Part shown: positions 586-28,569 of the stretch, one piece after another
Layout of the letters: each line of letters begins with the position of its first letter
How positions within the stretch are numbered: position 1 is the stretch's first letter
Assembly: GCA_022113835.1 (NCBI GenBank)
Contig: JAILWY010000018.1
Location: forward strand, 8,843,001 to 8,907,000
Origin: Atopsyche davidsoni
Lineage: Eukaryota; Arthropoda; Insecta; Trichoptera; Hydrobiosidae
Direction: 5' to 3'
Length of the DNA: 64,000 bases
Made by a program: the position numbers and the translations under genes
The notes under the pieces: model-generated
What the model was told of the DNA's origin: nothing
The model's input: only the letters and a program-made list of their open reading frames with translations
Databases searched by the model: none

Positions 586-1800
586 TTAAATAGTTGAGAA
601 ATTTTCATTCATCCCCATGGCGGTGTAATTCGATACGGAGGATTTTGTCACATAAAAGTCCTTCGTCACTCTAGGGCGGGTCACGATAGTGAACAGATGG
701 AATTCCATTCCACCCTCATCACCTTTGGGTTGATTCAGCCTCGCAGGCATACCGTGCAGAGACTCTGGAGAGTAGAAACCACTCACCGCCGAATAAGCTG
801 TTTTTTACACTCTCGTTTATTTTACTAAAGCTGAAACGTTTTTGAAACCTAGAATTACGAATTTAAAATTTGACTACTTCCATTTATATAATAATAAAAA
901 AACTTTAAATTCTAAAAGTAATATTTTTATCCAACACTAATTCTCTGAGGATAAAATGATTATATCTGGGTTCTTTGAAAATTTTAGCTGTAGCGTTGCA
1001 GCCAGCATTAGAAGTAAGGTTGATATGAATATCGAGAGGCTTATGGTCGAGACGCTTGATGCGCGCTGGAGGAATGCAACAGCTCTGAGGTGGCTGCTCT
1101 TGCCAATGTCTGTCAAACAACCAACCATCCAAGAACGTTTTCTGGCTGAAAGTGCACACGTCATCCAATTGGACTGCATGAATGTCGGTTCACGCCGGAT
1201 ATATGAGGGCAATCTATTTTTATATTGAGCGCAATGCTGCAGTACATATTACCAGAGTTGATAGAAAGCTGAATCTTTAGCTGCAGTAACATAATTTTCT
1301 TTATAGATACTTATCTACGGATGAATCCATCAAAATTAAAAGATTCTTTTGAAAAAAATAAAGGATAATGTAGTCCATCTACTCATTAAAAGTCATCATT
1401 GCTTGCCATCATGGCATTTTTAGGGAGAATATTTTCCAAGTCAATGTTTTTAAAGTATTATTAAAATAAAATAAAATAAAATTTTGAAAACTTTTAATAA
1501 AACTAAAATGATTCTTAATTATTTATGTACTTACGAGATCAATGAGTCTTCCATCTACAATACATTGTGACAAATAAGCTTGTCATAATATTTCACAACG
1601 TCTAAGGTGGATTTTTGATTATCCATATTATAGTTGCTTTGTCGTTTCTCAAGGAAAATTCCATTTTAGGCCCGGATACTTGGATCGCTGCCAAATTTGA
1701 TGGGGAGTTCCCATGAAAATATTGGAATGTCACTCATACCTCATGAGAGTCTCGCGAGGCGATACAGTGGCATTTACTAATGGTGGATGCAGTAATTAAG
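586..1800 (-). pseudogene. Decayed hexamerin gene
   Basis: Three stretches read as broken hexamerin on the minus strand, in gene order. About 1800-1532 gives FSWELPIKFGSDPS, then SNYNMDNQKSTLDVVKYYD and VDGRLIDL, which is the end of the M-domain exon; it ends at an intact-looking GTAAGT donor but needs frameshifts and contains stops. About 1210-905 gives ARIKRLDHKPLDIHINL and a degraded version of the FLGPKYD motif of the C domain. About 786-586 gives LHGMPARLNQPKGDEGGMEF, matching the LPKG-GGM motif seen in every gene here. I could not find the 158-nt exon between the first two parts, the first two exons, or the 3' end. The retained sequence differs from genes A-I, so this was a separate hexamerin lineage. 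Orientation matches the array. Confidence 0.7.
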
Positions 1801-3423
1801 TTCTTCGCATCTTTTTCGAAAGTCTTTTTCACCTAGTCATAATTAACAACTTTTAAAGGAAACAAAATAAAAAGGGGTTCATATCAAGACCTTGAGTAAA
1901 GTATTAAACCATATTTTCGATGTTACCGGTTCTAAATCGACAACGTAATCTTGCGATTTATTTATTTTAATTATTGAATGTTTAAAACCACTTTCCACAA
2001 AATAGGCTTTGTACGCGTCATCCGGAACAAAAGATAATCTAGAAATACTTTATATATTATAACAGTGTCAATATAAAATTTCTTATTTTATATTAATATC
2101 AATTAGACTTCTTGTCTAATTGATATTCAACTGCCACGTTGAATACACAAAAAAAAAACACCCCGCCATTTCTACGCATCTTTCTCACTATGCTGTTTGA
2201 TAAATTGGTTCAAAATCTTTCTCAAAAAAAGTCAGAACAAAGCGATTGCTTCCTGTCTCTGTCTTTCGCCTGTCAGGCTAGATAGAGGCCCTTGATTTCT
2301 TAGTTTCTCAAGCTCAGTTGAAACATTAGATTTCTAAATATATTTACTTTTTTAAAATACGAGTGTTATTATCCATTAATCTTCTTAAATTTAGATACAA
2401 TATTTTTTCTGTATCGTGACATATTATGACATCACTTCTTCAAAGAGTTTTTTTTAATGACAGTCAAAATAATTTAATAAAAAATCATAATAAATATTTC
2501 ACATTATATTCGTTTATTGTGTAAAAATATGTAAGTTGTCCCGACTCACGGTATATTTGTCTCCGTTTTTCAACACATCGTGGTATTCAGTGTCTGTCAG
2601 TTTTGGTAGGGTACTCATATCAATGACACCATTTTATATATACACATATAAATATATATATATATCATATCACCATATTATGTAAGAATGTGGTTGTTTA
2701 TTGCTGATAGATAGTGTTGTCATGTTTTAAATATGAGCCGAGCTTAAAAAAAGATATTCAAAAGCAAACAACAACAAGGATGTCGCCTATAGTATAAAGA
2801 TAGAACTTCGACGATATTTATATGTGTGATGATAAATAAAGATGTATAAATAGGCATGTTAAGAGTCATTTTGCAACGTCGGCCGCCCACTCCCTCGGAG
2901 CGCCAGAGCGTCTCATTAAGGGGGGCGGGGATATGCCAGCGCTGAAGTCTTTTTAAATGCTAAAATTACATATTTCCTTATTAATATTCCTGAATCCCTC
3001 TACAGTAAATCATAATCACTTTTATTCGTCATATTGAAGAACAAATAAGTTTCAAAGTATAAGAATATTCATCAATGGATTAATAATGTCATACTTATAC
3101 ATCACAAATATGATGCGTATTATTACTTAAATGAAAAAACAATTTTATGTTTTGATTTTATTATTAATAAATATTTTCAAATGTCTCTTAAAGATTTTTA
3201 ACATTTTTTTTATGTAAAGAGCCATCAAAACAAACGCATTTTTGCATTATTTATATATGTTTGGAAATAAACGCATTTTACAGTAGAACTCTTGGCAGAG
3301 GTATATGCAACCAACTAAGGACTGCATTGTAATATTCTTACATCAATTTTCTTCAGAATAATTATTACCTTTTTCAGAAGATATCGGAAAAAAATAAAGG
3401 TATACTAAAAAAAAATCAAAAAA
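1801..3423. other. Intergenic, downstream of gene A
   Basis: No gene recognised. Two adjacent perfect hairpins lie at about 2071-2127 (the second has 14-bp arms at 2095-2108 and 2114-2127 with a 5-nt loop), possibly a small transposon end. A GC-rich patch near 2878-2935 stands out from the AT-rich surroundings but I could not identify it. Confidence 0.4.
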
Positions 3424-3512: not shown

Positions 3513-6500
3513 TCAATAAAGACCCATTACTGGCGTGACTTTAAGGAATGGGTTTCTTATGATGACGGTTTTTTTCGGGGTATCTCGGATGACGGTGTAT
3601 CCCAGCATATTGGTGTCGGAGCCCAGCCCTCCGAGGGCAGTGTAGTCGGCGTCGTCGATTATATCCTGCATGTCCCAGGAAGTCTTGTATCGGTCGGCCG
3701 TCATCATGGGGTTTTCAGTATCAGTGTACTTCAAATAATCGTGATCGTACAGATCTTTCCCGAAAAACTTGTCTCCAAAATATTTATTGGAATAGTCGTC
3801 TGGAAGACGACCGTTGACTGTGGTTTTGATGACTACATACTTCTCTGGGATAATAGTATCTTCTGGAACGTATGTACTGTACGTTTTTATAACTTTATCT
3901 ACGAAAGTTTTTGGAGTGTATGTTTGTCCCTTAATGGTGATGGCTTTGTGTTTCTTCTTTGCATCTTTATCAATATTTATGAAATTTTTGTACATATTTC
4001 TTCGTGGCTCGACAGTATAATCAATTAAACCATTATCATTGTAACTGTCTCCATTCACGGCCTGATGGTAGGTATTTTCGTCGATTGAATTTTGTTGGTT
4101 TCCATCAACATCCATAAGTGTGTTATATTTCCTGTTATTATTGATATTGAATAAATTTCTGAGTCCAGTGTATCTATCAGTATTGTCTATAAAATCATCT
4201 TCAGTAACTGTCCGTACATCATTTACATTTTTGACGGAATTCAGCCGATCTCCATATAAATTTTGAACTAAAGTATCGTACGTAAACTTATGATTGATGT
4301 CTCTTAAAGCCATATTTTTAGGAGAAATAAAAGTGTCCTCAAATGGACGTCTTTGGCTGTAAGGATTATCCAAGCGATTCCAGTTATACAAATTAGTGTC
4401 ATCAGTATTTAAATAATCCACATTTATCATATCGTTTGTATCTCTCCGCGATCTATAAAGACTTTTTACCTCAGGGGATGTATAGAAATTCGTATATGCA
4501 AACTTTGCATCATATTTATTATTGGTAATTTTATAGTCTTCAAGATCATTATTTAAAAAAGTATTTTTTGGTGTGGTATAAATATTGCTTAATCCAGAAA
4601 AACGATCAATCTTTCCATTATGAGTATCGAGAAAGTTAATGTTATCAAAAGTATTCTCAACATTTTTACATATTCCATAAGCATAACATAAAGCGGCTAA
4701 TTCGTTTGTGTCAAAATCATTTGTTATTCCGTTTTTGATTTTCTTAGAAAAATCAACGATTGTGTGTTTACATACTCCGTAAGTTTTGCATTTCCGCTCT
4801 AATTCGACTTTATCGATGTTAAGAGTATTTCCATAAGTCGTCTTGTCATTAAAATCATCACCAGTGTTCTTGCACACACCATAAATATAGCACATGTGTG
4901 TCAATTTCAACATATCAATATCAGTTGTGGTTCCAATGACATTCCATTTGGTAAAATCATCAAAATTATTTTTACACACGCTATAAGTTTTGCATTTATG
5001 CTTTAAGTCTACTATATCAAAATCAAGGGCCTTTCCATAATCTGTCTTGCCATAAAAATCTTGAACCGTGCTCTTGCACACACCATAATTATAGCACATG
5101 TGGGTCAGTTTCACAATATCGATGTCGGTTGTAGTTCCAAAAAGATTCCACGTTTTGAAATCATTGAGGGTATTTTTACATACGCCATAAGTTTTGCACT
5201 TACGTTCCATGTCGACAATATCGATATCCGGGGTGTTTCTATAAAGCGTCTTGCCATAAAAATCGTCAACCGTGTTCATGCACACACCATAAATATAGCA
5301 CATGTGGGTCAATTTCAACATATCAATATCAGTTGTGGTTCCAATAACATTCCATTTAGTAAAATCATCAAAACTATTTTTACATACGCCATATGTTTTG
5401 CATTTATGCTTTAAGTCTACTATATCAAAATCAAGGGCCTTTCCATAATTTGTTTTGCCATAAAAATCTTTGACCGTGCTCTTGCAAATACCGTATGCAT
5501 AGCACATATGGGTCAATTTCACAATATCAATGTCAGTTGTAGTTATAAAGACATTCCATGACGTAAAATCCCCGAGAGTATTTTTACATACGTCATAAGT
5601 TTTGCATTTTCTTTCAAGGTCGACCATATCGATATCCAGGGTGTTTCCATAAGTTGTCTTGCCATGTACATCCTTATTGAAGTTCTTGCAGATTCCGTAA
5701 GTATGGCACATGTGAGTCAATTTCACAATATCGATATCGGTTGTAGTTCCAAATACATTCCATTTTGTGAAATCATTAAGCGTATTTTTACAAACGCCAT
5801 AAGTTTTGCACTTGCGTTCTAAGTCGACCATATCAATATCCAGGGTGTTTCCATAAGTTGTCTTGCCATGAACATCCTTATTGATGTTCTTGCAGATTCC
5901 GTAAGTATGGCACATGTGAGTCAATTTCACAATATCGATATCAGTTGTAGTTCCAAATACATTCCATTTTGTGAAATCATTAAGCGTATTTTTACAAATG
6001 CCATAAGTTTTGCACTTGCGTTCTAAGTCGACCATATCAATATCCAGGGAGTTTCCATAAGTTGTCTTGCCATGTACATCCTTATTCAAGTTCTTGCAGA
6101 TTCCGTAAGTATGGCACGTGTGAGTCAATTTCACAATATCGGTGTCGGTTGTAGTTCCAAAGACTCCCCATCTAGTAAAATCCCCTTGGGTATTTTTACA
6201 AACGCCATATGTATTGCACTTGCGTTCTAAGTCGACCATATCAATATCCAGGGTGTTTTCATAAGTTGTCTTGCCATGAACATCCTTATTGAAGTTCTTG
6301 CAGATTCCGTAAGTATGGCACATGTGAGTCAATTTCACAATATCGATATCGGTTGGAGTTCCAAATACATTCCATTTTGTGAAATCATTAAGCGTATTTT
6401 TACAAACGCCATAAGTTTTGCACTTGCGTTCTAAGTCGACCATATCAATATCCAGGGTGTTTCCATAAGTTGTCTTGCCATGAACATCCTTATTCAAGTT

Positions 6501-9500
6501 CTTGCAGATTCCGTAAGTATGGCACGTGTGAGTCAATTTCACAATATCGATGTCGGTTGTAGTTTCAAAAAGATTCCACGTTTTGAAATCATTAAGGGTA
6601 TTTTTACATATGCCATAAGTTTTGCACTTGCGTTCTAAGTCGACCATATCAATATCCAGGGTGTTTCCATAAGTTGTCTTGCCATGAACATCCTTATTGA
6701 TGTTCTTGCAGATTCCGTAAGTGTGGCACATGTGAGTCAATTTTACAATATCGATATCGGTTGTAGTTCCAAATACATTCCATTTTGTGAAATCATTAAG
6801 CGTATTTTTACAAATGCCATAAGTTTTGCACTTGCGTTCTAAGTCGACCATATCAATATCCAGGATGTTTTTATAAGTTGTCTTGCCATTAAAATCGTTA
6901 ACCGTGTTTTTGCACACACCATAAGAATGGCACATGTGGGTTAGTTTCAACATATCAATATCAGTTGTGGTTCCAATGACATTCCATTTAGTAAAATCAT
7001 CGAAACTATTTTTACATACGCCATATGTTTTGCATTTATGCTTTAAGTCTACTATATCAAAATCAAGGGCCTTTCCATAATTTGTTTTGCCATAAAAATC
7101 TTTGACCGTGCTCTTGCAAATACCGTATGCATAGCACATATGGGTCAATTTCACAATATCAATGTCAGTTGTAGTTATAAAGACATTCCATGACGTAAAA
7201 TCCCCGAGAGTATTTTTACATACGTCATAGGTTTTGCATTTTCTTTCAAGGTCGACCATATCGATATCCAGGGTGTTTCCATAAGTTGTCTTGCCATGTA
7301 CATCCTTATTCAAGTTCTTGCAGATTCCGTAAGTATGGCACGTGTGAGTCAATTTCACAATATCGGTGTCGGTTGTAGTTCCAAAGACTCCCCATCTAGT
7401 AAAATCCCCTAGGGTATTTTTACATACGTCATAGATTTTGCATTTACGCTCCAAGTCAACCAAATCAATCTTCAGAATGTTTTCATTTATATTTTTCGCA
7501 TCAATTTTTTTAAATATTTTTTTACAAATACCGATGGTATTACACATTCTAGTCAATTTTACAATATCGACGTTTTGTGTGGTGCCAATAACATTCTTGT
7601 TAATAAAATCACCGTATGTGTTTATACATACGTCATATGTTATGCACATGTTCTCTAAGTCATCCATATTTGTATTTTCTGTATTTACATAATTCTTCGA
7701 TAAGTCTGTTGACTTTGTACTTCTTGTATATCTTTTGAGATCACGATAGTGCTTGTTTGTATTTGTGTTTGTATAAAATTTTCCTTCGCCTACTTGATTA
7801 AGATTTTCACCATAGTTATAATTACCTACTGTATCGCGGTAGTTAAAATTTTTACCACCTGTGAAATAATTATTGCCAGCTAAGCCTTCATTTTTTGTGA
7901 AAAATTTGCTAAACATAGGACTTATTTTGTTTATGTAGTTGCTATCGCGAGCCAAATCCTTAATATACATTGTATTGGTGTGAGTATTTTTTAGATGATA
8001 GATTTTTATATCTGTCATCAACATATTATTTAGGAAAAATTCACTTTCATCAATAGGACGATCTAATGGGTAGCCAAAATGCACGTCTTCATAATAACGA
8101 GCACCAGTTCCCACTCCAGCGTTGTAAGTAGTAGGGAAACCTGTACCGTACTTTACGTTTGCTTGTCGGAAAGGCGTGACGATTACAAATAATTGATACG
8201 TCATTCCGCTCTCTTTACCTTTTGGTATTAAGAGTCTCAGAGGCCAGCCGTTATGAGGCTCTGTCATATCCATTTCGAAATCACCATTTAGCAAATCTTC
8301 GTAAAGTTTTCTTATCGGCGTTCGATCTATTGAAGTGCGAGAAAAGTCAGTATTTTTTCGGATAATTGTATTGACGCCGGACTTAAGAGTGTAGATGAAG
8401 AAGTCAACTTCAACGAAATTTAATCTATTGTCGTCGAGATTAATTTCACGCCCAAAGTTATCATATTTAGGTCCAACAAACATCCTCACGGCCGCATCTA
8501 CGGTATTCTCAGACAGTATATCCATAGTTACTGTGAAAGGTTTGTGATTGAGACGTTTTTGTTGACCCAAAAACAACAACTTTTCATTGCCGGTCTTAAC
8601 TTCACCAGGGTTCATATGAGCGGCGTTCGTTAGATCAAATCTGTATTCTTCCATGAATGTTATCAAAGTGGTGAGCTTGACGTTGGCTAATTTGACACCA
8701 TTAAACTCTAGTTGATCTCGAGTATACGAAGGCAAACGGTTCTTGAAATTAACAAAGAACTTCATCACATGGTTTTGGAGTTGATAGAACATCGGGTCTC
8801 TCGTGGTTGTTTGAATTTTTTCAATCACTGATGGTACGTAGTCAACTCTAAAAATTTGAAAATGTTGCTGAGTATTCATGGTATTTATATTGATATTACT
8901 ATATATATAATATTATTCGTATATATTTGCAATGATACATACGGGTCATGGGTTTTGACACTAGCTCCGACAAGAACATTAGCTCCTACAGTCAGCAAAT
9001 CGTTAGTGGTGACTCCATCCAGGTCGCTGGTTCCCTGCACTAGGCGGCCCAGCACTTCAATGTCGGAAGGGTTTTGCATGCGAATAGTAGTTCCATCAAC
9101 CTGATAAACGAGTATATGTGTAACATTTTGATTTATTTAAGCTTTACTTCATTGCATTAATGCATTTACAGTATACGAACCTTAGTGAAAAATCCTGTGT
9201 CGGTAATAATTCGAATCTCATTTTCAAACTCTTTAACTTTTCGCAACAGCTCAATTGTATTTTTGTTTTCAATTCTATAGTTCATATTCCTGGAAGGGAG
9301 GGTTTTACCATTGACTGTTATCATATTGGGATTAAAACCGTATTTGATGGGCAGATTCCAAGAGAATTCCGGAATTTTTCCTAATCCGTTAGCAAGTCTC
9401 TCCATGTAGAATCGAGCCAAAAGCTGTTGATGTATATAGTAATAGAGCTCTCCTCTTCGGTCTTTGTAGAGTCCAAAGTCCTTACCGCCCATCCAGAATG

Positions 9501-11847
9501 GATAGTCAGCGTGGAAATAATAGTAATAAGTATTCAGACCGAGATCGTGGGTAAAGTAGGAGACCTTCTGCTCTTCGTCGTCTACGTCATAGGATCCATC
9601 CGCGTTACAGTCGATTGTTACCTCGTTGCCTTTGACCCTGACGTTAGATTCGATGCCATCCCTCAGGCTGAGGAACTCGGTAGTCTTCACGGTGTCGAGC
9701 TTGTGAATAACGTCAGCGTTGACGAAATCGTAGGGATTGATCTCGTAGGGAGCGGGCAGCTCGATGCCGCGGCAGTCGATTCGGTGCAGTACGGCAACGG
9801 TAAGCGAGTACACAAACAGGTCTGGATTGGCATGTACTCGACTCCAACAAGCCGTGCGATAGAAGGTGTCGAAGTCCCGTGCATAATACATCAGGTTGAA
9901 GAGTGCCACGGCTTCGTCCCTGTGACGATGAAGCGTCAGGCTGAAGGCGGAGTTGCGCGGTAGCAACCCCTTTTTCCAGAAGTGGATGAATTCATCCACA
10001 ACACGCGTGTTCTGCCAATCCAGAGATAAGAGCATACCATTATAACAATGCTATGAACAATTTATAGTATTATATTAAAAAAATATATTTTAAGCTCAGG
10101 CAGATTATTTTCCAGAAGTGGATAAATAAGGGTTAGTAGATTAAAAGAATTGATGTTCAAATCATATATGAATGATAACTGAAATTCTTATAAATAATTT
10201 GGATTGTAAGAATACACCCAATCTAATTATACGCAAATCTTTTTTTTTCAGAATAGCCAAAATAATTAATTCCCTACCAAGTATTTATCTCGGTTGGTGA
10301 TAACAGAATAGTCCTGGCCGATGCGGGCCTGATCTGAGTTGAGGTTCTCTTGATACACCTTCCAAACCAGGTCGAACAGCAACTTCTGGCGCATTCCTTG
10401 TGAGTCCACACCATCTTCGATTGCTTTGTAAACAGAGAAATTTATTATAGAAATTAAAATAGAAAGTATTATAGAATATTTATCTTATGCGTTATTTACT
10501 TTAAATAATTAACAAACAGTATCAAACTCAAATACTTACCTCAACATTATATTGTACGAAATATTAAATTTTATAACACAAAATGTTTTATTTCGTAGTT
10601 TTAGAGTCAAGAATTCATAAAGCCACAAAAGCACCTGGCGGCACTGCCAATGGTTATGAAACATTTAATGGTTTAAGGTCGTTTGGCTAAATAATAAACC
10701 TCCATTAATTATATGGGATAATTTTAAATACTTTAAAGATTTAATTTGTTTTAAAAAGTACTCCACGAACCTTCTCAAAATAATAGTAGTCAACGACACT
10801 ACTCTTTTGTGTCTTCAATGTGAAATTAAAAATGGTTATTTTTACATGTTTTAGAATTAGAAACAAGAATTGGAAACGGAATTAAAAGCAAGAATCAGAG
10901 TCATGATAAAAAAAAATTATAGCTATTTAAAAACTGTGACATTATCTTGACCATATGACTTTGCATGAATATTTATTAAATCTAACAAAGGTTTTTTTAT
11001 CTAAACAATAAAAACATATGAGATTGCTATTACATTTAGATAGTTCATTGTATATAAGCATTTACAAGTATGTATTTTGGTTATGATGGATGTTATCGAT
11101 TTTCAAGTAAAAACGCGAGTAAAGTGTGTGCTTGTAGTGAGACCCAAAACAGATTTTTAAAAGGGTTCTTTAAACATGTTATTCCTACATAAACATAATA
11201 CGAAAAAAAATCCACGTACAATGCCATGTAAGCCCCACAACCTGTGCCCAGGATCAGGGGATAGTCACATGGTGTATTGTAAGCATGGTCCTAAGAAATA
11301 TTCTATCATAAATAAACGAAAAAAATTAAATAATTTTGAATTTATTTTTTTAAAGATTAATTTTTTTAACATTATATTACATTTGTTTTAAACTACTGCT
11401 GGATAAAAAAATGCAATTGAATTAAAAATTCAACGAATTTTCACATGGTAGATGATGTATAAAAATCTAATATTTTGAGTTTAGATAAAACTTTGGTGTT
11501 GATGGGACTTTTAAAATATTTATTGTTTGTTTGAATAAAATAATAAAACATAAAAAGCATTAGTCAAGGAGAGAAATAGTAATAAACTTCAATGAAACTT
11601 CGATGACTGTGATACCTACTGATAATAATATTGATAAGTAACTGAATAATTAATAATTAACTGGCAGTGGAGCGTCATTTCTGCTATTACTCTGTAGTTA
11701 AATTAATTCCCATTTTTATGAATACCTTTGAATGGTCTTTTATTAAGGAAGTTCAGAATACTCACTAAGCTTTCGCTCTGCCACAGGTCTGACGACTAAA
11801 GCCGCGGCCAGAGCCAGGCTACACAGCACCACCCCGAGCAGCTTCAT
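3513..11847 (-). CDS. Gene A: giant hexamerin with CX5C repeat extension
   Basis: Predicted secreted storage protein of 2183 aa, against about 700-750 for ordinary hexamerins. Coding exons: 11847-11766, 10423-10278, 10011-9181, 9100-8943, 8847-3513; phases 1, 0, 0, 2, and the sum (6552 nt) stays in frame. Signal peptide MKLLGVVLCSLALAAA. The M domain has TYYYYFHADYPFW at about 237-249, where hemocyanins bind copper, and MERLANGLG near 277. The C domain runs about 407-691 with FVGPKYDNFGR at 529-539 and FGYPLDRPI at 663-671, so it is complete. The remaining 1490 residues lie in the same exon: an Asn/Tyr-rich spacer (about 696-800), 30 modules of 34 aa with C-x5-C (about 801-1800), and a tail (1801-2183) with RSRR ending near 1874. 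The gene shares its five-exon structure with B, C and D. The repeat part is far more AT-rich than the M-domain exon. Hexamerin identity is firm; the extension's role is unknown. Confidence 0.9.
4443..4454 (-). other. RSRR furin-like site in gene A tail
   Basis: Encodes R-S-R-R followed by D at about residues 1871-1874, just C-terminal of the repeat array. RXRR is the furin-type proprotein convertase consensus. Cleavage here would leave a tail of 309 residues. This is a motif match only. Confidence 0.35.
4630..7665 (-). repeat. 15 x 204-bp coding tandem repeat (30 CX5C modules)
   Basis: Fifteen dyads of 68 codons, each two 34-codon modules. Module a has the core ERKCKTYGVCKNTLNDF and module b the core LTHMCHTYGICKN; each carries one C-x5-C. 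First cysteine is residue 807, the last is 1799, exactly as predicted by 34-residue spacing, so I see no net indel in 30 modules. Flanking units (first and last) are the most diverged and central ones nearly identical, the usual picture for homogenisation by unequal exchange. Confidence 0.93.
5310..5670 (-). repeat. Higher-order duplicate inside the array
   Basis: This block recurs at 6942-7302, an offset of 1632 bp or exactly 8 dyads. By eye I count only about three mismatches over some 350 bp. It carries the distinctive variants TSWNVFITT, KSTVKDFYGK and DLKHKC, so dyads 3-4 and 11-12 are copies of one another. It suggests an expansion event that moved several dyads at once. Confidence 0.85.
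10424..11765 (-). other. Intron 1 of gene A (1.34 kb)
   Basis: Bounded by GTGAGT and TACAAAG. Much longer than the other introns of gene A. It contains a plus-strand frame at 11176-11391 with a short Cys-containing stretch; I do not recognise it and do not call it a gene. Confidence 0.6.
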
Positions 11848-14268: not shown

Positions 14269-17200
14269 TTAATATCTGTTGTAGAAAGTATTGGTACTAT
14301 ACGTTGTGTCAGGAGTATTGAAGCCGTTGGAAGTCTTCCAGTCATTTGTGGTGTGGTAATCTCGGATAAAGTAGTCATTGGTTCTCTTGTCACCGATTGT
14401 TTTTGTGTACTCGCGAGGAGTGAAATCCTTAGTGGTCAGGAAATCAGTGGTCTTCAATAAATGCCGGGGAGTGACGCCTTTGCTTGGCCTCAAATCGACA
14501 GTATTTAGCATACCGTGGAATGTTGTATAATCATTATTCAAATAATCGTGAGTATCTCGGGTGTCCATGAAGTTGCGGGTATTGGTGAAGTCCTTTGTGA
14601 AGTCACGAGTGTTGAAGAAAGTATTTTTTGTTTTGTCGTCTGTTGTAAATAAGTTGTGGGTATTTGTGAAGTCCTTGGTGAAATCACGAGTGGTGAAGTC
14701 TGTATTTCTCATATCGTCGCCGGTGGTAAAAAACTTTCGCGTGTTGGTGAAATCACGAGTGGTAAAGTCATTATTCTTTGTAAAATCGCCGGTAGTGAAA
14801 AAGTTGCGAGTATTTGTGAAGTCCTTTGTGAAATCACGAGTATTGAAGCCAGTTGACTTCCAAAAGTCACCGGTTGTGGTGTCAGTCTTAATGTGAGTGA
14901 TCTTCACGTCAGTCATGTACATGTTTTTAGTGAAGAACTCGCCTCTGTTGATAAAACGATCGAAGGGGAACCCGAGAGGAATGTCTTCGAGGTAACGACC
15001 GCCAGTTCCAACCCCTGTGCCGAAAGCAGTAGAATATCCTGTTCCGTATGTAGTCTTAGCGGCTCTGTAGGGAGTGACAATCACGTAAAGTTGGAAGGTC
15101 ATACCTCCGACGGTACCCTTTGGCAGAGCCAAATGAAGAGGGAAGAGATTATGGCGCACGGTAGTATCGTATTTGAATTCATGACCTCCGAGAATGGAAT
15201 TAGTAAGCGTATCAAATAAGGTACGAGTATCCACAAAATCTCTGGTGAATTGAGTAAAGTCGGTGTTTCTTCTTGTGATCAAGTTGTTACCGGTCTTCAG
15301 GGTAGTCAAGAAAGTATCGATCTCAACAAAGTTATGCTTGTTATCATTGATATCTAAAAGACGTCCAAAGGTGTCGTACTTGGGTCCCAAGAAGATACGA
15401 ACGGTGGCATCGGTGCTGGTGGTGGATGCAACATCAATGTCAATTGTGAAGGTCTTGTGATTTAATCGCTTTTGGACTGAATAATATTTTATGTTAGTCT
15501 TTCCAGTCATAACCTTCTCATAGGTCAGAGAAATAGCGTTCGTAATATCGAAGTAGAACTTCTCGAAGTAAGTAAACAGTGGAGACACCTTCACGTCTCT
15601 CACTATAACTCCATCAAAGTTGAGCTCGTGTTTGGTGTATGACGGCAGCATGTTCTTAAAAAGATGGCAGTAGTGGACGAGTCGCTGGGTGAACATGTAA
15701 AACATGGGATCACGCAGGCAAGTGTGGGTGTTATCCAGGACAGACGGAACGTATTTGAAACTGCAACAAATAATGTCAATCCATTATAATCTAAGTACAA
15801 ATAAAAAAATATTACATTCTCAAAAATAAATAAACAGTACTTGTCATAAGTCATGGTAGCTCCACCTAGTACCATCTTAGCCACGACTGTCAAATGGTCG
15901 GTGTAACGGTAATCGCCGATGTCCTTGTTACCGAAAATGAAACGAACCAATGTGTCAAAGTCTTCAGCCTTGGTAAAGGTCAGTGTGGTCCCGTCGTACT
16001 GTAATAAAAAAATAAATGCTTTAGAGTAGGAATATCCAATGGCCATACGCTATCTCATCAAGTGACTGCAGTTGAACATACCAATGTGATGCCACCCTTG
16101 TAAATAGCGTCACGAATGCGCCTTTCGAAGTCAAAGATGGTTTGGAGATGGTATACGTTGGCCTCGGTGTCTAAATCATAATTGTACTCCCTACCAGACA
16201 CGGGGGTTCCAAATGCAGTGAGCATATTTGGGTTGAAGCCTTGCTTGATGGGTTTAGTCCATGAGAACCTCGGGATAACGCCGAGCCCGTTGCTGAGCCT
16301 CTCCATGTAGTATCGAGCCAGAAGCTGCTGGTGCACATAGAAATTCAGCTCTCCGCGCCTATCCTTGTACAACCCTAATTCTTTGCGAGTCATCCAGAAC
16401 GGATAGTCCATGTTAAAGAAAGTATAATAGGTACTGAGAGTAACATCGTGAGTGAAATATTTCATCTTCATCTCCAAATCGTTGACATCAAAGTTCCTGG
16501 AGAAATGGTCTTCAATGAAAATGGAGTTATCATTGTAGGTCACTCGGTTTTCAGTGTTCTTCGTGTTCATGAAGTTCTTGATTCCCATATGTTCAATGGC
16601 AGTGGCCCGGTGAAGAACATCTGCTCCGACAAAGTCAAAGGGGTAAACTTCATACATTGGAGGAGTGATCAACCCGAGGCAATCCTTACGGTGCATAATG
16701 GCCACGTTGAATGTGTAGACGAATAGACCCATGTTCACGTACTCGCGAGCCCAACAGGCGGTTCTGAAGAATGTTTCAAAGTCCTTGGCATAGAAGAACA
16801 AGTTGAAGAGTGCCATGGCTTCTTCTCTCTGCTTGTTGCACGTCAGAGTGAAGGTGGTGGTGAAAGGCGTCAGGCCGTACCTCATAAAGGACACGTACTT
16901 GTCAATTACTTCGGGCTATAATGAAAATAATGCACATTAATTGAATGTCGAGTTTTATAAGTTTGGATTAATGGATTTCATTTGATCTTTTTGACATACC
17001 TTGACGAAGCTATCAACATGGTCAACGAAGTTCCAGTTTTTAAGAATATTTATGTACTCCGTCATAAATTTATCCTCGAGGGTGTTACCGGTGAATTCGG
17101 GTAACGTTTTCATGTTGGAAATTTTGGTCATTCTGGTTACATGGTTCATCAGGAAGAATACTCGGTATTGCTTGATTAAGAACTTGGAATCCACTAAAGA

Positions 17201-20591: not shown

Positions 20592-23415
20592 TTAATCTGT
20601 CTTAACGTGAGTATCCATGAAATTGTGGGTATTGGTGAAGTCCTTTGTGAAGTCACGAGTGTTGAAGAAAGTATTTTTTGTTTTGTCGTCTGTTGTAAAA
20701 AATTTGTGGGTATTTGTGAAGTCCTTGGTGAAATCACGAGTGGTGAAGTCTGTATTTCTCATATCGTCGCCGGTGGTAAAAAACTTTCGCGTGTTGGTGA
20801 AATCACGAGTGGTAAAGTCATTATTCTTTGTAAAATCGCCGGTAGTGTAAAAGTTGCGAGTATTTGTGAAGTCCTTTGTGAAATCACGAGTATTGAAGCC
20901 AGTTGACTTCCAAAAGTCACCGGTTGTGGTGTCAGTCTTAATGTGAGTGATCTTCACGTCAGTCATGTACATGTTTTTAGTGAAGAACTCGCCTCTGTTG
21001 ATGAAACGATCGAAGGGGAACCCGAGAGGGATGTCTTCGAGGTAACGACCGCCAGTTCCAACCCCTGTGCCGAAAGTAGTGGAATATCCTGTTCCGTATG
21101 TAGTCTTAGCGGCTCTGTAGGGAGTGACAATCACGTAAAGTTGGAAGGTCATACCTCCGACGGTACCCTTTGGCAGAGCCAAATGAAGAGGGAAGAGGTT
21201 ATGGCGCACGGTAGTATCGTATTTGAATTCATGACCTCCGAGGATGGAATTAGTAAGCGTATCAAATAAGGTACGAGTATCCACAAAATCTCTGGTGAAT
21301 TGAGTAAAGTCGGTATTTCTCCTTGTGATCAAGTTGTTACCGGTCTTCAGGGTAGTCAAGAAAGTATCGATCTCAACAAAGTTATGTTTGTTATCATTGA
21401 TATCTAAAAGACGTCCAAAGGTGTCGTACTTGGGTCCCAAGAAGATACGAACGGTGGCATCGGTGCTGGTGGTGGATGCAACGTCAATGTCAATTGTGAA
21501 CGTCTTGTGATTTAATCGCTTTTGGACTGAGTAATATTTCATGTTAATCTTTCCAGTCGTAACCTTCTCATAGGTCAGAGAAATAGCGTTCGTAATATCG
21601 AAGTAGAATTTCTCGAAGTAAGTAAACAGTGGAGACACCTTCACGTCTCTCACTACAACTCCATCAAAGTTGAGCTCGTGTTTGGTGTATGACGGCAGCA
21701 TGTTCTTGAAAAGATGACAGTAGTGGACGAGTCGCTGGGTGAACATGTAAAACATGGGATCACGCAGGCAAGTGTGGGTGTTATCCAGGACAGACGGAAC
21801 GTATTTGAAACTGCAACAAATAATGTCAATACATTATAATCTAAGTACGAATAAAAAAATATTCCATTCTCAAAAATAAATAAACCGTACTTGTCATAAG
21901 TCATGGTAGCTCCACCTAGTACCATCTTAGCCACGACTGTCAAATGGTCGGTGTAACGGTAATCGCCGATGTCCTTGTTACCGAAAATGAAACGAACCAA
22001 TGTGTCAAAGTCTTCAGCCTTGGTGAAGGTCAGTTTAGTCCCGTCGTACTGCAACAAAAAGTGAAAGCTAAAGTAAGAATATCCAATGGCCATACGCTAT
22101 CTCATCAAGTGACTGCAGTTAAACATACCAATGTGATGCTGCCCTTGTAAATAGCGTCACGAATGCGCCTTTCGAAGTCAAAGATGGTTTGGAGATGGTA
22201 TACGTTGGCCTCGGTGTCTAAATCATAATTGTACTCCCTACCAGACACGGGGGTTCCAAATGCAGTGAGCATATTTGGGTTGAAGCCTTGCTTGATGGGT
22301 TTAGTCCATGAGAACCTCGGGATAACGCCGAGTCCGTTGCTGAGCCTCTCCATGTAGTATCGAGCCAGAAGCTGCTGGTGCACATAGAAATTCAGCTCTC
22401 CGCGCCTATCCTTGTATAACCCCAATTCTTTGCGAGTCATCCAGAACGGATAGTCCATGTTAAAGAAAGTATAATAGGTACTGAGAGTAACATCGTGGGT
22501 GAAATATTTCATCTTCATCTCCAAATCGTTGACATCAAAGTTCCTAGAGAAATGGTCTTCAATGAAGATGGAGTTATCATTGTAGGTCACTCGGTTTTCA
22601 GTGTTCTTCATGTTCATGAAGTTCTTGATTCCCATATGTTCAATGGTAGTGGCCCGGTGGAGAACATCTGCTCCGACAAAGTCAAAGGGGTAAACTTCAT
22701 ACATTGGAGGAGTGATCAACCCGAGGCAATCCTTACGGTGCATAATGGCCACGTTAAATGTGTAGACGAATAGACCCATGTTCACGTACTCGCGAGCCCA
22801 ACAGGCGGTTCTGAAGAATGTTTCAAAGTCCTTGGCATAGAAGAACAAGTTGAAGAGTGCCATGGCTTCTTCTCTCTGCTTGTTGCACGTCAGAGTGAAG
22901 GTGGTGGTGAAAGGCGTCAGGCCGTACCTCATAAAGGACACGTACTTGTCAATTACTTCGGGCTATAATGAAAATAATGCACATTAATTGAATGTCGAGT
23001 TTTTATAAGTTTGGATTAATACATTTCATTTGATCTAATTTTGACATACCTTGACGAAGCTATCAACATGGTCAACGAAGTTCCAGTTTTTAAGAATATT
23101 TACGTACTCCGTCATAAACTTATCCTCGAGGGTGTTACCGGTGAATTCGGGTAACGTTTTCATGTTGGAAATTTTGGTCATTCTGGTTACATGGTTCATC
23201 AGGAAGAATACTCTGTATTGCTTGATTAAGAACTTGGAATCCACTAAAGACAGAACATTATCTGGTTTATAGGTTTAATTGTATGCAACACATAAGTAGT
23301 TTATGAGAGAATAAGTTGATGATGACTTACCAACAGTGTCCCGGTGAGTAATTGTGGGCAGAACCGTGGCCTGCGCCAGGGCCAGGCCGGCGACCAGGAA
23401 AAAAAGGAACTTCAT
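20592..23415 (-). CDS. Gene C: tandem copy of gene B with shortened tail
   Basis: Predicted secreted storage protein of 829 aa. Coding exons: 23415-23331, 23243-23050, 22962-22129, 22048-21891, 21810-20592 (2490 nt, in frame). The first four exon lengths equal those of B exactly and I count only about 13 amino-acid differences before the tail. Signal peptide, copper-free M domain and C domain are as in B. The Thr/Asp/Phe repeats are present, but homology stops near 20604, at the end of the fourth repeat: the protein ends FMDTHVKTD and lacks the last 91 or so residues of B. The TATA box and initiator are conserved and the frame is open, so it may be functional, but the missing end could also mark a partial duplicate on its way to decay. 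Confidence 0.87.
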
Positions 23416-25614: not shown

Positions 25615-28569
25615 TTACCACCCATACTCATCATCAAAATTATCATCTATAATATTTTTTCCTTTGTATCTATTATTAAACGCATCGCTTTGATTGATGT
25701 TCGCTTTAAGAAGTTCTTTATCATCCTTAAATTGGCTAACGACATCGTTTGAGGTTATTTTTTGAGTGTGAAATATCTTAATGTCTGCGAATTTCATGTT
25801 GGTGGTGGTGAATTTGTCATCGTATGCCGGGCGGTCCAGTGGGAATCCGTAGGCGAAGTCTTCTGACATGCCACCCTTCGCGAGAGTCCCCGTGTACTGC
25901 CAGGGGAACTCAGTTCCGTAGTTGGGGTCCTTTGATTTGAACTTCGTTATTACTACAAACACTTGGAAGGTACAACCGTCATCTTTACCCTTCGGAAGTA
26001 TAAGCCTCAGCGGCCAACTGTTCTTATTCCTCGTCTTGTCCGCAGAGGCGCCTGGCTTTGTCGCACTCTTCTTAATCATCTTGTACAAGTCTCTCGTGAC
26101 CGTCGGGTCACCGGCTGTGCGGATAAATTCTGTATCTTTTCGGACGATAGCATTTTTTCCAATTTTAAGGGTGTACATAAAGTTATCGAGTTCCACGAAG
26201 TGTTTCCAGCTATCTATGAGATTGATAGCGCGGCCGACGTTATCGTACTTGGGCCCTAAGAAGACGCGGACAGTCGCGTCGATGTTTTTATCGGATGTAA
26301 CGTTGATCGTTACCGAAAACGGTTCGTGGTTCAGTCGTTTCTGACGAGCGTAGAATGTTTTCATTTCTTTCTTGTTATCGGTGTCATAGGTATTCTCAAT
26401 GCAATTGGTTATATCGAAATCGTAGTCTTCGAAGAAAGTTGTCAACTTTGTTAGAGTGACTTTTTCTACAGTTATGCCTGTGAATGAAAGGTCATTGGCT
26501 GTGTATGGAGGCAAGTTTCCCTTGAAATGATAGAAGTATTGAAGGTACCGCTCCCAAAGTTGATAAAACATGGGATCTCTGGTGGTCGTTTGGAGTTGCT
26601 CGATAGCTGACGGAACGTAATCTTCTCTGTAAAAAACAAAATACAATAATATTCATTGAAAATAAATTTTTAATCAAGTATTAAATAAAATGTTAACAAC
26701 ATTTACACTAATGTTAAATTAACATAGCGCTTAGATTGATTTCACAGGTTTTGAAAAATGGTTTCGATTAAAGTTGGAGATTGATATTGTATAAATATTT
26801 TGTGCACGTGATGATGTCAACGATTGTTGTAAAATTCAAAACATTCAATCGTGTACATCATCAGTTCAGTGGAATTAAATCCTATTTTCTATAGTATCGA
26901 TTATTTGGCAGTGGTATAAGCTCAAATGGCAAAACGTACTTATTGGTTACTGTGGCAGATCCTCCCAGCAGATACTTGGCGACGATAGCTCCGTAGTCGG
27001 CTCTCCCTACGTCTCGTGATTCCTTGTCTCCTTGGATAAAGCGTCCCAGAGTCTCAATATCTTCTGCATTTCTCAACGCAAGCGTTCTTTTGTCATGCTA
27101 AATATATGGAGATTGACATATTATTATATATGTGTGTATATAGTATTTAAAAGTAAATTATCGATTTTTACATAAATTACCAAGGTAATGTATCCTTTCT
27201 GAATGCTATGTCGAATGGTCCTTTCGTATTTTTCCGCGTCATCTACCATGAGAATTTTATACTTGTTATTTACTACGTAGAGATTAGGCCTTATCGGTGT
27301 GGTTAGACCGTTCCTGAAAAGCGTCTTGGGGTTGTATCCATTTCGGATAAATCTGTGCCACGAGAAACTCTGGATGCTCGGCAAGTCTCCGGAGAGCCTC
27401 TCCAGCATGTAATGAGCGATCAGCTGCTGGTGGAGGTAATAGTACAACTCTCCGCGCCTGTCGTCGTTCAAGTGCAGTGTGTTACCGGCCATCCAAAATG
27501 GATACTCCAAATTATAATTATAATAAAATGCGCTCAAGCCGATGTCGTCCGTGAAGTGAGCAAGCTTTTTGTCACTGGGGTTGATATCAGGAGTGTCCGA
27601 AAGATAATTGTGAATAGTGTATTTATTTCCGCTCGAAATAACTCCATCCATATTAGTTGTATCGCCTTTGACTATTGATTTCATTTTTTTGATAACATCG
27701 GATGACACAAAGGCAAAAGGATTCGCCTCGTACGACTGTGGAGTGACAACGTTCTTGCAATCAGGTCTGTGGAAAACTGCTAAAGTGAAAGCGTACACGA
27801 AGATATCATAGTTCACATATTTCCTTGTGAGTAATGCTGTCTTGTAGAATATTTCGTATGTTTTGGCATTCCAATACAAGTTAAAGAGTGAAATCGCTTC
27901 TTCTCGTTGCTTATTGAACGTCAATGAAAATATTTTCGTTTTTGACAATAATCCGCTTTTAGTTACAGCTAAAAATTTCTTCACTACCTCGGAATTCTGA
28001 AAGAGATTTTTATATTAATACTTTAAAAGGTTACCAAAAATCTTTAAAAATGCGCCTAAAAGTGTTATCTATTTGTCTTATCAAACAAAAAGCTGATTTT
28101 ACATACAAGCTTCGTTAATAAGCAAATAAAAAAATATATATGAAGTAAGCGATTTTAGGTAAATATAAAGTTTTATATATTTTTAAGACCTGTGCGTCCA
28201 TAAACAGATAGAATGAAAATTAATAAACTATTAGAATAAATTAAATATGAAACAATACATACAGTGTAGTCAACTTCTTTCAATTGATTAGTTAATTCAT
28301 TGTCAACATCCGTTGAATTTCCGTGATAGGAGTTTTGACTGTGAAAGCTAAATAAGTCAAATATTTCTTGTTGCTTAGTCAGAATATTATCTACTGAAAA
28401 ATAATGCTGTGATTATTTAAGTAAAAAAGATAATTAGTCAAATGTCAAATGAGATATATTATATATATTAAGCACCACCTGTTAAATATGACTTACCAGT
28501 CCTTGTGGCGCCAGTGGCGTGCCAGCAGCTGGCCAGCGCAGCCAGCCAGCACAGCCCAAGGAACTTCAT
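25615..28569 (-). CDS. Gene D: hexamerin without extension
   Basis: Predicted secreted storage protein of 729 aa. Coding exons: 28569-28497, 28393-28263, 27996-27181, 27097-26940, 26626-25615 (2190 nt, in frame; same phases as A-C). Signal peptide MKFLGLCWLAALASCW. The second exon is short (131 nt against 194 in B) and has lost the usual N-domain stretch before the first helix; it contains a possible N-glycosylation site, NST. M domain: FYYNYNLEYPFWM in place of copper ligands, and LERLSGDLP. C domain: FLGPKYDNVGR, LPKGKDDGCTF and YGFPLDRPAY. The end is only about 50 residues beyond the last conserved motif. It groups with A-C by exon structure and by the QKRLNH motif, so it may show what that subgroup looked like before it gained extensions, or after losing one. 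Confidence 0.88.

Follow-up and report, generated by a model that had tools for sequence, protein, structure and literature searches.

What could a hexamerin gain from a C-terminal extension about twice as long as the rest of the protein and holding 60 of its 64 cysteines? This question is raised by the gene G2, carried by a 64,000-nucleotide stretch of the genome of the caddisfly Atopsyche davidsoni (hereafter the window; G000:C18:8843001-8907000 in an assembly of 370.7 Mb). Hexamerins rank with the most abundant larval proteins of insects and are usually pictured as fixed, cysteine-poor particles of about 500 kDa. In G2, a hexamerin C domain runs without interruption into 30 regularly spaced cysteine-pair modules, which may serve as a cystine reserve.

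One exon from the C domain to the cysteine array

The spliced model of G2 is a five-exon gene on the minus strand (11847-3513), with four GT-AG introns, which encodes 2183 residues without any internal stop. The claim of an earlier, sequence-only reading that the C domain is continuous with the cysteine array is borne out, both lying on one stop-free exon (3513..8847) within a minus-strand stop-to-stop frame (3513-8912) that forms a single open reading frame (ORF) of 1799 codons. Residues 40-284 of this exon match Hemocyanin_C (Pfam PF03723) with an expectation value (E) of 1.7e-71. The ORF holding exon 3 (9166-10050) matches Hemocyanin_M (PF00372, 9e-61) and Hemocyanin_N (PF03722, 2.3e-29), so that G2 carries the N, M and C domains in the order expected of a hexamerin. 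The core covers residues 1-690, and its motif GYPLDRPI begins at residue 664, not near 668 as first given. The extension covers residues 691-2183; its 60 cysteines in 30 C-x5-C pairs stand as initially counted, while its length is 1493 residues instead of 1490. The N-terminus, judged by eye on the model and not by a predictor, is hydrophobic and resembles a signal peptide; with the cut placed by eye after residue 16, the mature chain is predicted to be 250.6 kDa.

By its domains, and as far as sequence can tell, G2 is a hexamerin that its size and its tail set apart from known hexamerins. Among PDB sequences, its C domain is closest to insect juvenile-hormone-suppressible proteins, arylphorins and silkworm storage proteins. 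The histidines of copper A, the only site inspected (by eye), are lost: G2 has YYYYFH where the phenoloxidase-like locus L002 has HHWHWH, which we take to be the copper-A motif. The protein is much longer than the roughly 700 residues of usual hexamerin subunits, a size that is typical rather than defining. Phe, Trp and Tyr together make up 12.6% of the core and 11.9% of the whole protein, which places G2 outside the arylphorins (Phe plus Tyr over about 15%). In the same way, its mature chain, with 2.5% Met and 2.9% Cys, falls below the 4 to 11% Met that PMC2861669 gives for methionine-rich hexamerins.

The array is strictly regular. The C-x5-C modules recur at an exact period of 34 residues, and all 29 distances between successive pairs equal 28, whereas 2000 shuffles of the extension yielded 2.4 C-x5-C on average and 8 at most. 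Read in any of the five remaining frames, the array contains 17 to 114 stops. Odd and even modules are of two types, which makes the DNA repeat 204 bases long; it is present in 15 units by cysteine register and in 13.2 copies by Tandem Repeats Finder.

None of the 30 modules lacks either of its two cysteines (positions 11 and 17), which are the sole invariant residues; next come Asp 3, Leu 7 and Tyr 14 (29 modules each), then Lys 18 and Asp 23 (28 each). Amino-acid changes among the 15 units are fewer than silent ones: over the 93 usable unit pairs out of 105 (12 being dropped), the ratio of nonsynonymous to synonymous rates (dN/dS, NG86 method) is 0.16 when pooled, with a median of 0.23. The edge modules 1, 2, 29 and 30, all among the five least conserved, are only 45% like the consensus outside the cysteines, yet keep 8 of their 8 cysteines (P about 0.002, assuming independent sites). 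Exact spacing and the retention of the module suggest selection on more than composition. Furthermore, units 3 and 11 show 1 difference in 204 bases and modules 4-7 match modules 20-23 at 96-100%, which indicates block duplication and growth by exchange. Within G2, the alignment of a unit with modules 1-2 also stands far above shuffles (local alignment, z 26).

AlphaFold2 applied to the 30 aligned modules predicts a two-helix hairpin (helix 5-15, turn, helix 21-33). The single-module model has block values of the predicted local distance difference test (pLDDT) of 74 and 78 over residues 1-20, and four modules in a row are modelled as alternating helices. The cysteines are predicted to sit within the final turns of helix 1 and the loop that follows it, a position in which a local disulfide within the module would be plausible.

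No relative of the extension was found above cut-off in protein, Pfam, NCBIfam and PDB searches, or in the hexamerin literature searched, in line with the initial reading, which knew of no described hexamerin of this kind. Protein searches returned nothing at E <= 0.01 (7983 candidates scored) and nothing at E <= 1 (7993 scored), the candidates being about 977-3110 and 402-1278 residues long. These searches do not prove absence: scoring was limited to the candidates with the most shared words, among which low-complexity words may displace true relatives. Exon 5 matches 24 PDB sequences, all of them within its first 297 residues, and the module profile matches none at E <= 10. Beyond Hemocyanin_C, Pfam gives only three matches on exon 5, all below their curated cut-offs, the best being DUF7753 on one module (E 9.6e-5, 22.7 bits for a cut-off of 27). 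One 68-residue unit gives Pvs28, JmjN, EGF_3 and Methyltrn_RNA_4, all below cut-off (E 0.016-0.058), the tail alone no match and the linker alone one at 0.067. The single NCBIfam match has an E of 0.52, and none is above cut-off for the extension. Among the titles and abstract openings listed in the hexamerin literature searched, mostly from outside subscription journals, none mentions a hexamerin with cysteine modules.

Within the genome, no second place matched the module (best 9 candidates scored, E <= 1), the tail matched only its own single place (best 2 candidates scored, E <= 1), and among the hexamerins of this genome the module appears to be carried by G2 alone. A fusion with a separate gene was considered and rejected: it is not needed, since the module and the tail match no other place among these candidates and the tails of paralogs occupy the same position.

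C-terminal tails and sequons across the family

The sequence-only reading missed the tails of the neighbouring hexamerins, of which the extension of G2 is the extreme case: the C-terminus is labile across the family. The paralogs G3, G4, L001, L007 and L008 extend 105 to 196 residues past the C domain as Thr/Asn/Asp/Lys-rich, cysteine-free tails that differ in bulk composition (Met reaches 9.5% in L007, Phe 12.8% in G3). Shared ancestry of these tails was examined by local alignment against shuffles; G4, a near-copy of G3, was left out. Between genes, only the pair L007-L008 passed z 3 (z 11), and most tails therefore look independently built. The tails of G3 and G4 differ in length (196 and 105 residues) despite 98% identity in the two main exons, which points to a recent change of tail size.

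Related hexamerins were sought among candidates of roughly 470-1490 aa. Of the 120 matches listed, 118 could be measured and end at most 64 residues past the core, and the 115 relatives over 650 aa hold a median of 4 and a maximum of 14 cysteines, which agrees with the earlier description of hexamerins as poor in this residue. The nearest of these matches is an arylphorin subunit alpha-like protein (P0001) from another caddisfly, Arctopsyche grandis, which aligns to 81% of the 851-residue query at 49% identity; unlike G2, it has 710 residues, ends soon past the C domain and lacks any extension. In an unrooted tree, G2, G5, G3, L007 and L008 share a branch side with this protein (Shimodaira-Hasegawa-like approximate likelihood ratio test, SH-aLRT, 99), and L001, G6, G8 and G10 lie on the opposite side. 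The tree, made by a quick method, comprises 35 rows (nine genes of this genome and 26 hand-chosen matches of the 120), three of them under half filled, and has a long branch for G5. The lepidopteran setting implied at first thus gives way to a caddisfly one.

The closest described case appears to be the Glx-rich honey bee HEX 110, likewise a hexamerin whose size is increased by an extended compositionally biased segment. However, as presented in PMC2861669, this segment is Gln/Glu-rich, has 291 residues and interrupts the C domain, and it is not a C-terminal array of cysteine modules. In the same way, the hexamerins P0019 (1055 aa) and P0055 (881 aa) show a low-complexity expansion, but it is inserted inside the C domain (as judged by eye) and has no ordered cysteine array.

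The long tails also lack the N-glycosylation sequon. None of the six tails (G2, G3, G4, L001, L007, L008) contains N-x-S/T, despite very high Asn and Thr. When the G2 linker, one 68-residue unit and the G2 tail were pooled with the tails of G3, L001, L007 and L008, 0 sequons were counted against 29.7 expected from composition-preserving shuffles, while the mirror motif S/T-x-N occurred 36 times, an outcome expected from selection in the endoplasmic reticulum (ER). G4 (as a near-copy of G3, with 0 sequons in its tail) and the 47-residue G5 tail (1 sequon) were left out of the pool. Its sites are not all independent, given the homology of L007 with L008 and the internal repeats in tails like that of G3. 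The 120 related hexamerins (among the matches listed) are also sequon-poor: the sequon reaches 0.48 of its expected count and the mirror motif 0.71, and 26 of the 120 proteins are sequon-free. This suggests that some depletion is general, though it is far stronger in the tails considered here. In the M-domain exon, NYT/NYS, assumed to bear a glycan, is present in G6-G10 and L001 and missing in G2, G3, G5, L007 and L008. Read as evidence, the absence of sequons would mean that the extension is a real translation product that goes through the ER, and that N-glycans attached to it would be harmful. Sequon-free, long Asn/Thr-rich tails offer a further, independent sign of selection in the secretory pathway that can be tested.

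A proposed cystine reserve and its rivals

The explanation that we favour, with a confidence a little short of even, is that G2 encodes a secreted hexamerin whose tail is a chain of disulfide-closed helical hairpins serving as a cystine reserve. The freely varying C-terminal tail of a hexamerin would have gained a 34-residue module with a cysteine pair, which would then have multiplied to 30 copies through unequal exchange. Each module would probably fold as a small helical hairpin, with one disulfide joining its own two cysteines; a subunit would then carry 30 such beads, and a hexamer 180 beads with 360 array cysteines. We infer that the predicted G2 protein is expressed, secreted and assembled into hexamers, that its cysteines pair as disulfides, and that it most likely serves in hemolymph or fat body as a store of cystine (plus Thr, Asp, Asn and Lys) used at metamorphosis or egg formation.

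This reading draws on the nature of hexamerins, from the differently biased tails of the paralogs and from a parallel with the sulfur-rich storage hexamers of moths, which a review essay regards as useful for the disulfide-reinforced chorion (PMC3011924, section 19). A disulfide bead that could be made at a high level without aggregation would meet both composition and spacing, whereas a cross-linked network would meet spacing only. Adult caddisflies feed little, and G2, if the reserve is real, offers a way to ask how insects with such adults provision cysteine. Furthermore, a hexamerin of triple the normal length whose periodic cysteine array is under selection would, if confirmed, make the C-terminus an open site for stored amino acids or modules.

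Several points weigh against a reserve built of such beads. The exact spacing and the conserved module exceed the needs of a bare amino-acid store, so that a structural role fits this feature at least as well. Homogenisation between units also depresses apparent dN/dS. The structure prediction of modules proposed by the sequence-only reading succeeded in part: it gave a two-helix hairpin of moderate quality for a single module (mean pLDDT 68) and a poor model for four (mean 55). Exon 5 contains AATAAA at 4520 and 3788, both in the tail, as well as ATTAAA at 8424 in the C domain, and 9 of its 10 donor-like words lie within the array; the two AATAAA and these donor-like words make shorter transcripts possible. 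The lepidopteran chorion family (Chorion_1) was not found in the genome, and neither was fibroin P25, sought as a further clue to the insect order; both nulls are uninformative, since neither search matched any control genome. Finally, the sulfur store of moths, as it appears in the essay cited above, consists of high-methionine hexamerins and not of cysteine (PMC3011924): G2 resembles them in being enriched in a sulfur amino acid, but that amino acid is Cys (2.9%), Met reaching only 2.5%.

A bolder version is possible but doubtful. It would make the module a new 34-residue disulfide mini-domain, born in the fast-evolving tail, whose 30 copies turn the storage hexamer into a six-armed, 360-cysteine particle, a depot or gel in which thiols and disulfides interconvert reversibly. 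Hexamerin tails would have radiated across the family, each acquiring a composition of its own and the long ones staying free of N-glycosylation sites, with that of G2 as the extreme.

The main rival, rather unlikely in our view, is a structural cross-linker in which the arms of hexamers are joined by inter-subunit disulfides to form a gel, a dense storage granule, a clot or a cuticle or cocoon component. It accords with 60 cysteines at fixed spacing in conserved surroundings and with arms of 1493 residues on a protein of a normally hexameric kind. The even number of cysteines per module also permits exchange between arms; however, even and local C-x5-C pairing favours closure within the module, and no structural-protein domain lies above cut-off in the extension (Pfam, NCBIfam).

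Selfish or near-neutral growth is improbable. Unequal exchange would simply enlarge a tolerated tail, conservation reflecting only the avoidance of misfolding or glycosylation, as could be expected from the repeat-rich and mostly unrelated tails of several paralogs, from the recent block duplications and from the lowering of dN/dS by homogenisation. However, the most diverged modules retain both cysteines, and the 1020-residue array remains open and regular. It is very unlikely that G2 encodes a precursor from which the array is freed as a secreted protein by cleavage at RSRR (residue 1871) and at basic residues before the array: RSRR, located after the array, is the only R-X-[KR]-R of the protein, but the linker offers a lone KR (777-778) and no furin site.

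A giant metallothionein-like, metal-binding array, the weakest of the three functions first offered, is hardly credible: although cysteines come in pairs and His adjoins them in many even-numbered modules, there are just two per 34 residues, far from a dense cluster, no other ligand is invariant (position 9 is His in 16 of 30 modules and Arg in 12; position 12 is Lys in 13, His in 8 and Tyr in 6), and an extracellular setting favours disulfides.

Features and surroundings of the window

Coordinates of G2, its parts and the neighbouring hexamerins in the window
Feature	Position	Strand	Description
Exon 1	11766..11847	-	start codon and apparent signal peptide (MKLLGVVLCSLALAAAL...), judged by eye; donor GTGAGT
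Exon 2	10278..10423	-	hemocyanin N domain begins here; spliced model and tblastn
Exon 3	9181..10011	-	N/M domains; Pfam on ORF 9166-10050 and splice sites
Exon 4	8943..9100	-	between M and C domains; spliced model and tblastn
Exon 5	3513..8847	-	C domain, linker, cysteine array, tail, stop codon
Linker	7677..7994	-	residues 691-796 (106 residues), no Cys, predicted pI 9.6
Cysteine array	4617..7676	-	residues 797-1816 (1020 residues); 30 modules x 34 (15 units x 68); 60 Cys
C-terminal tail	3516..4616	-	residues 1817-2183 (367 residues), no Cys; furin-like RSRR at residue 1871
Poly(A) signal AATAAA	3424..3429	-	downstream of stop codon
G3 (exons 3-5)	14269..16915	-	Cys-free T/D/F/N-rich repeat tail of 196 residues
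G3, part with the tail	14269-15783
G4	20592..22962	-	98% identical to G3 in two main exons; tail of 105 residues
G4, part with the tail	20592-21833
G5	25615..28014	-	short tail (39 residues by one count, 47 in the sequon count)
G6-G10	30446-60055	-	tandem arylphorin-like; 82-97% identical to each other in the M-domain exon
Decayed hexamerin copy	about 679-1836	-	M- and C-domain fragments in several frames

In a tblastn search with the core, about ten hexamerin genes are seen to lie in tandem in the window (G2, G3-G10 and the edge of G11), and every one of them is on the minus strand. G6-G10 apparently have introns inside the C domain, which G2-G5 do not. Other Hemocyanin_C loci of the genome are found on C18 (L001, L007 and L008), C11 and C8. 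Among them, L002 (G000:C8:3093614-3094378) is a 715-aa open frame whose HHWHWH motif presumably makes it an intron-poor prophenoloxidase.

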